In this document: piece after piece, positions 1 through 164 of the stretch
Layout of the letters: each line of letters opens with the position of its first letter
How positions within the stretch are numbered: position 1 is the stretch's first letter
Notes under the pieces: model-generated
Told to the model about the DNA's origin: nothing
The model's input: the letters and a program-made list of their open reading frames with translations, nothing else
Databases searched by the model: none
NCBI GenBank assembly: GCA_017510785.1
Contig: JAFWMH010000051.1
Location: 1 to 43,429, forward strand
Direction of reading: 5' to 3'
Source of the DNA: Atopobiaceae bacterium
GTDB taxonomy: Bacteria > Actinomycetota > Coriobacteriia > Coriobacteriales > Atopobiaceae
DNA length: 43,429 nucleotides
Made by a program: the position numbers and the translations under genes

Positions 1-164
1 GCCTTGACGTTTTCGATGGAGTCGCTTGGCTCGACATCCAGGGTAATGGTTTTCCCCGTCAGCGTCTTAACGAAAATCTGCATGGCAAATGCCGGAGTAG
101 CCACGCACATCAACAGCGCAAGCACGAGGAAGAACCCCAGCGCGTTTCTTTTCTTTCCCTTCAT
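1..164 (-). CDS. Secreted ubiquitin (signal peptide + ubiquitin), 3' end outside window
   Basis: The visible 54 codons encode a 27-residue Sec signal peptide (KGKKR n-region, hydrophobic [12 protein letters not shown] core, ATPAFA cleavage motif) followed directly by [15 protein letters not shown] and the next residues of ubiquitin. The first 28 ubiquitin residues match human ubiquitin except E16D and T22S; K6, K11 and K27 are kept. Predicted cleavage after AFA would release a mature protein beginning exactly at ubiquitin Met1 (codon at 83-81). The start at 164 has a GGGAG ribosome binding site. Codons are GC-rich like the neighbours, so this is not an obvious eukaryotic contaminant. Known precedent: Bacteroides fragilis secretes a more divergent ubiquitin-like protein (BfUbb). 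Lys48, Lys63 and the C-terminal RGG lie beyond the window, so conjugation competence cannot be judged. The role is unknown; interference with, or mimicry of, host or protozoal ubiquitin is inference. Confidence 0.93.

Follow-up and report, generated by a model that had tools for sequence, protein, structure and literature searches.

The window, meaning the whole stretch of DNA that was analysed (43,429 nucleotides, positions 1 to 43,429 of contig JAFWMH010000051.1 in Atopobiaceae assembly GCA_017510785.1), begins inside a gene for a predicted exported ubiquitin. The visible 5' part of this gene (54 codons; 3..164, minus strand) begins with an ATG at 164, and its frame continues without a stop as far as base 3, at the very start of the contig. 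It encodes a predicted signal peptide of 27 residues ending in TPAFA (84..164, minus strand), identified from the sequence and by a hydrophobicity rule, and then ubiquitin residues 1-27, from Met1 to Lys27 (3..83, minus strand), as placed by the Pfam profile and by alignment to the human protein. The AFA abuts ubiquitin Met1, confirming the exact junction that an earlier, sequence-only reading of this DNA had described. That reading also gave 26 of 28 residues as identical to human ubiquitin; its two substitutions, E16D and T22S, hold, but 27 residues are visible and 25 of them match in the alignment. It rightly gave the gene its own ribosome binding site, which is likely the AAGGGAG at 169..175 (minus strand), 4 bases before the ATG, whereas the GC-rich codons it noted hold for third positions (72% GC) and not for the gene overall (51.9%, against 57.9% for the window). 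The PF00240 profile aligns over model residues 1-25 of 72 only, scoring 25.9 bits against a curated cut-off of 25.4, and the match to the best single-copy ubiquitin chain in the PDB (E 7.8e-12) is far beyond chance. The protein is visible to ubiquitin residue 27 only, its tail, anchor and most lysines, Lys48 and Lys63 among them, lying beyond the contig start, and everything said below about the part past residue 27 is inference.

The rest of the gene was not found in the genome's own assembly, in which the PF00240 profile gives one place only and a search with the full proteins of two relatives gave no further ubiquitin piece. Two other contigs of this assembly, C71 and C76, start inside identical ChW-like repeat sequence (L148, L149), which indicates that repeats of surface proteins break its contigs, without thereby placing either one beside the window contig, C28. 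No E1, E2 or JAB-type gene was seen in the 11 window ORFs scanned with Pfam, one flank of the ubiquitin gene being off the contig. Elsewhere in the window, a nonribosomal peptide synthetase of 3048 residues (11418-20564, plus strand), with three AMP-binding, two condensation and two carrier stretches and a terminal NAD-dependent reductase, lies beside a MatE exporter (9335-11362, plus strand); judged by their domains, these genes are likely a cluster of the peptide-aldehyde type in a relative of the Coriobacteria. A row of SBP_bac_3/GGDEF/EAL and dCache/GGDEF signalling proteins occupies 22741-29292 (plus strand).

Directly upstream of the ubiquitin gene, at a distance of 153 bases, lies a gene for a putative lipoprotein that we name IPGY after its motif (318..824, minus strand), with a lipobox, LPAC, by eye and a predicted beta domain. 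Upstream of it again are ORF pieces in two frames (934..1348, minus strand), whose signal-peptide region matches, at 56% over 32 aa, that of the gene preceding the lipoprotein in another locus, L132. The lipoprotein has no Pfam family above cut-off. AlphaFold models a beta domain with confidence (mean pLDDT 73; block means of 81-97, with one of 59, over residues 61-168), and Foldseek gave weak Ig-type matches only; as the best PDB match has an E of 1.5e-3 with a low TM, we draw no function from the fold. The IPGY family counts 997 matching proteins, and a protein identical to that of the window (P0242) represents a two-sequence cluster that occurs on 7 contigs of up to 86,140 bases. Among the 140 genomes of the window's taxonomic family the lipoprotein occurs in 20, weak matches included, and is commoner there than ubiquitin.

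This lipoprotein recurs beside ubiquitin elsewhere. A profile built from four copies (those of the window, L016, L054 and L068) also recovered the copies of L017 and L062; the lipoprotein gene is directly upstream of the ubiquitin gene, on the same strand, in L016, L017, L054 and L062 (three Clostridia-type loci and one Massilimicrobiota locus), and lies 2 kb from it in L068. In two genomes with no PF00240 match (G035, locus L131; G072, locus L132), the gene after that of the lipoprotein encodes an exported protein that has no ubiquitin. The body of the L131 protein matches the tail of the L054 ubiquitin protein at 43% over 348 aa (E 1.5e-59), and that of the L132 protein does so at 38% over 154 aa. 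Such homologues within the same cassette make it likely that a surface-protein cassette already in place acquired or shed ubiquitin at its N-terminus; from these alignments, ubiquitin looks like a swappable N-terminal module. The lipoprotein also stands beside homologues without ubiquitin and belongs to the cassette; its probable partner in the envelope is therefore the surface protein rather than ubiquitin. When the window was compared with the flanks of L011, L023 and L088 and with the short stretches of L002-L007, the ubiquitin gene alone matched. Among the five groups of recurrent neighbours that were opened, those of LysR, ABC-transporter and SDR type were dropped as chance, with scattered distances. 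The largest recurrent group, separate from these five, takes in seven loci, 860-4790 bases away. In L043, L046, L048, L051, L053 and L073 a conserved gene adjoins the ubiquitin gene; it has no Pfam family in the four copies scanned, and its model resembles SETD3/LSMT SET methyltransferases.

A search of related genomes for the same fusion, which the sequence-only reading had proposed, found matching exported ubiquitin in three genus-mates: the window DNA is matched at the ubiquitin gene in three other genomes of the 16 in the genus, giving signal-peptide ubiquitin in 4 of 16 with the window's own included, some of the 16 being incomplete. The genus-mate protein of L011 is 67% identical to the window protein over 58 aa, signal peptide included. 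The closest ubiquitin in protein databases was also to be sought; the matches listed (120 rows per query) were dominated by eukaryotic polyubiquitin. The L011 protein is present in further assemblies (P0174, P0182). Across the taxonomic family, 9 of 140 genomes have PF00240 matches, 8 of them above cut-off (the match in G003 falls below it), and seven, the window's own included, carry signal-peptide ubiquitin fusions. A 4.4-kb contig in the assembly of a genus-mate, G069, holds a pair of divergent ubiquitin-like ORFs that lack a signal peptide (L008/L010) and are possibly foreign DNA in the bin.

Beyond the family, we kept the best 80 of 296 relatives from a wider similarity scan. By record titles, with some genera placed from recall, these come from about 11 phyla, and include Actinomycetota, Bacillota, Pseudomonadota, Campylobacterota, Acidobacteria, Verrucomicrobia, Bacteroidetes, Synergistaceae, KSB1, Lindowbacteria and methanogenic archaea. 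A 'cyanobacterium' bin (L051) was set aside, its gene nearly equalling the Methylophilaceae gene of L043. Isolates are among the carriers, as is one complete chromosome (Pseudomonas protegens FD6, L027). By title, several carriers come from rumen or gut, and others have no host association (a marine bin, Neptunomonas, Methanothrix); cultured Pseudomonas and Saccharibacillus also carry the gene. In the window's phylum, PF00240 is matched above cut-off in 2 of 296 genomes, of which the one beside the window's own lacks a signal peptide and has broken frames. The corresponding figures, which like the first include the centre genome, are 2 of 369 for the Pseudomonas kuykendallii class, 5 of 391 for the class that contains a Clostridiales genome, 4 of 296 for the Pedobacter phylum and 10 of 288 for the phylum sampled around an Akkermansiaceae bin; the 14 control genomes have none. 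Exported ubiquitin is rare yet widely spread. Several loci hold more than one copy. In Pedobacter cryoconitis (L087, 6880-8282) four tandem exported ubiquitins, in frames of 98-102 residues, stop at the ubiquitin C-terminus without the diglycine, a free form like that of BfUbb from Bacteroides fragilis; tandem pairs occur in L118 and L120 (from the Verrucomicrobia phylum sample), L063 and L072; and an actinobacterial genome (G236, L095/L096) has tandem ubiquitin pieces with several broken frames and no signal peptide.

For counting we used 105 distinct ubiquitin domains with an HMM score of at least 80, after dropping duplicates, the window fragment, L095 and low-scoring hits. Of these, 23 stand under Pfam-sampled locus ids and 82 come from the similarity set, drawn from the best 80 of 296 relatives and biased towards signal peptides like the window's; L002, L003 and L004, among the 23, were also recovered by similarity, and the Pfam-sampled domains of L085, L063 and L040 are counted in the 82. 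The junction in relatives is the same as the AFA|M of the window, or nearly so. Immediately ahead of ubiquitin residue 1, the 23 Pfam-sampled domains have A (13 domains), S (5) or G (5), and the signal-peptide rule is passed by 21 of these 23 (by eye, both failures would be cut one residue earlier) and by 81 of the 82. Identity to human ubiquitin over residues 1-70 reaches a maximum of 69, with a median of 63 in the similarity set and of 54.5 in 24 Pfam-sampled domains (L095 still counted); these values do not support the earlier view that the window's ubiquitin is unusually unchanged. All seven lysines are present in 65 of the 105 domains. LRLRGG is kept in one of the 104 relatives with a visible end, and the C-terminal diglycine is missing from the other 103 (L037, cut by a contig end at residue 64, is left out of this count), so that the family has kept the fold and lost the tail used for tagging. 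The sole member with an intact LRLRGG, L040 from a Bacillota bin of Clostridia class, continues into a tail that is SLH-like by eye, and its ubiquitin could be cut by a deubiquitinase.

Many of the tails that follow ubiquitin carry surface elements. Pfam found Autotransporter domains in 18 of the 105 members, IPTL-CTERM in 8, SLH and fn3 in 7 each, List-Bact repeats in 6, InlB-type repeats in 5 and Por secretion tails in 2, and an NCBIfam scan of ten members gave IPTL-CTERM, T9SS and List-Bact matches, each in single members. The C-termini of the 95 members uncut by a contig end show LPXTG-like motifs in 11, IPTL/VPxLP in 12 and PEP/VPDSG in 2; 4 have no tail at all, and 66 have no sorting motif by simple rules, part of these being barrels or SLH proteins by Pfam. 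Nearest to the window, LPXTG-like ends are found in five of six genus- and family-mates (L002, L003, L005, L006, L007). The sixth, L011, has a 58-residue tail for which the genome of the window itself has 21 further matching places; the ORFs inspected there end with it, and one that was scanned holds ChW repeats by Pfam, which finds no ChW in L011 itself.

The two parts of these proteins evolve under different constraint. Of 17 pairs of relatives tried, 15 were computable, and dN/dS is lower in ubiquitin than in the tail in 13 of these, the pairs not all being independent; ubiquitin values range from 0.039 to 0.399, and some tails align poorly. In the two exceptions, both from Pseudomonas, the tail is more constrained than ubiquitin. 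In most pairs, then, ubiquitin is under stronger purifying selection than the tail, which bears out the earlier suggestion of a sequence kept by selection. Mean identity per position in the 23 Pfam-sampled domains, with residue memberships of the patches that we assume to be the usual ones, is 0.773 over residues 1-70, 0.894 in the core and 0.884 in the Phe4 patch, which falls in about the top 5% in a test against random positions. The Ile44 patch, the one used by most eukaryotic ubiquitin receptors, stands at 0.647, below random positions (P 0.037). Values are average for the lysines (0.770), the Asp58 patch (0.761) and the TEK box (0.783), and low for the Ile36 patch (0.500), which takes in tail residues. 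As the lysine, Asp58 and TEK positions are only average, the signal of any special selection on the surface is modest.

In a tree of 151 domains (105 prokaryotic and 46 eukaryotic, over 70 columns), 108 of the 147 inner branches are left open; 18 label changes are required, and starred branches force at least 2 of these. So weak a resolution does not fix the number or direction of transfers. The recent, one-off transfer from a eukaryote that had been proposed for the window is not supported, given the 18 label changes, the presence of the gene in three other genomes of the genus and a tree too weak to date or count transfers.

An exported, N-terminal and swappable domain that lacks the conjugation tail, is kept by selection and is joined to many anchors is best covered, for most of these facts, by a head displayed for contact. 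We propose that the window protein is likely a surface-displayed, non-conjugating ubiquitin head that binds non-covalently, with a probability of about one half. According to this model, a Sec signal peptide would be cut at AFA|M, leaving native ubiquitin Met1 as the mature N-terminus, and ubiquitin would be followed by a cell-surface part, predicted for the window from its genus-mates and from the lipoprotein linkage; the upstream lipoprotein would be its likely partner in the envelope. With the domain kept by selection and the conjugation tail absent in nearly all members, ubiquitin presumably acts by its folded surface, and a drifted Ile44 face beside an undrifted Phe4 face suggests that contact is probably made through the Phe4/beta-sheet face. 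The target would probably be an envelope or secreted protein of another microbe, by analogy with BfUbb, which is the weakest step of the model. BfUbb, the only characterised relative that was found, has the same export junction, has likewise lost the glycines and is inhibitory to sister strains, and another microbe is for this reason the first candidate. For the family at large, we see about an even chance that ubiquitin serves bacteria and archaea from about a dozen phyla as a displayed N-terminal head of surface proteins that is swappable and non-conjugating, a domain for extracellular recognition or a weapon, with BfUbb as the free, unanchored extreme.

Ubiquitin in these proteins might instead be a secreted antibacterial agent like BfUbb, which the cell releases or displays and which kills related strains or inhibits them, with the surface parts serving for delivery. 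BfUbb does act in this way as a free 76-residue protein (PMC5705921, in the part available), presence is patchy (four genomes out of 16 in the genus, counting the window's own, with some of the 16 incomplete), and Pedobacter has its four tandem free ubiquitins. Most members, however, carry long tails, the neighbour groups opened hold no recurrent candidate immunity gene, and the available parts of PMC5705921 and PMC3352274 leave the mode of action of BfUbb without explanation; we regard such a role as unlikely. Also doubtful is that ubiquitin is merely a stable, protease-resistant plug at the N-terminus of surface proteins. This would agree with its invariably N-terminal and swappable position and with the pattern among the 23 sampled domains, in which the core is most conserved and the lysines only average, but the Phe4 patch lies near the core in conservation, and median identities of 63/70 and 54.5/70 to human ubiquitin are, in our judgement, high for a constraint on the fold only.

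Ciliates live in rumen and gut, the source of several carriers, and the protein could imitate ubiquitin in order to act on host or protist ubiquitin pathways, the target proposed by the sequence-only reading. According to the available part of PMC3352274, ubiquitination in vitro is inhibited by recombinant BfUbb, which also binds human E1. Yet the diglycine is absent in 103 of 104 relatives and the Ile44 patch is relaxed, being less conserved than average; an exported domain ends outside the cell and not in host cytosol; and among the carriers are a marine bin, Methanothrix and cultured members of Pseudomonas and Saccharibacillus. We therefore think such mimicry very improbable. Finally, the joining of a eukaryotic read to a bacterial contig in assembly or binning, to which the position of the gene at a contig end and the failure to find its remainder in the assembly might point, is rejected as next to impossible by the signal-peptide genes of three genus-mates, the same lipoprotein linkage in other groups and the relative on the complete chromosome of Pseudomonas protegens FD6, and also goes against a bacterial signal peptide and start site in frame and against the identical lipoprotein's cluster on 7 contigs.

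Ubiquitin is taught as a eukaryotic intracellular tag. If true, a ubiquitin head displayed at the cell surface is an unexpected use of a protein thought to be eukaryotic, and a little-changed ubiquitin that is repeatedly fused to many surface parts, selected, and stripped of its tagging tail raises the question of what the fold does outside the cell. Cassette pairs with and without ubiquitin (L054 against L131 and L132), together with carriers that are isolates, make the model testable by the removal of one domain. Among the literature matches listed, which leave out preprints and most subscription papers, no title concerns a multi-phylum family of exported or surface-anchored ubiquitin, and the direct exported bacterial case is BfUbb only (PMC5705921, PMC3352274). 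The Babela paper, in the part available, names secreted ubiquitin hydrolases and not ubiquitin, and PMC11354881 has no mention of BfUbb, fragilis, secreted or signal peptide.

BfUbb (Ubb of Bacteroides fragilis) is exported with Met1 at the cut site, lacks the terminal glycine and is antibacterial against sister strains, and activating or conjugating enzymes are not apparent in the B. fragilis genome (available parts of PMC5705921 and PMC3352274; the genome statement from PMC3352274). Like BfUbb, the exported-ubiquitin family has a signal peptide with a predicted cut directly before ubiquitin Met1, or nearly so, and, in 103 of 104 cases, no diglycine; BfUbb is a free 76-residue protein 63% identical to human ubiquitin, whereas the family is mostly fused to longer tails, with many members nearer to human. 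A later paper reportedly names a prolyl isomerase as the target of BfUbb. A nematode secreted ubiquitin has the same order of signal peptide, ubiquitin and extension, but it is an effector of a eukaryote, and its extension has 12 residues and is removed in the plant (available part of PMC5705921), whereas the prokaryotic family mostly has long tails. The ubiquitin fold in bacteria is common to this family and to Bil/BilA and other ubiquitin-like conjugation systems, which are cytoplasmic and come with E1/E2/DUB partners of which none was seen among the 11 window ORFs scanned. Ordinary ChW, SLH, LPXTG and autotransporter surface proteins share with the family a signal peptide and a C-terminal surface part and, unlike it, have no ubiquitin head. 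Eukaryotic ubiquitin is the same domain as that of the window, down to 25 of the 27 visible residues in the human protein; the family differs from it in being exported, in having a single N-terminal copy and in the loss of the conjugation tail in 103 of 104 members.
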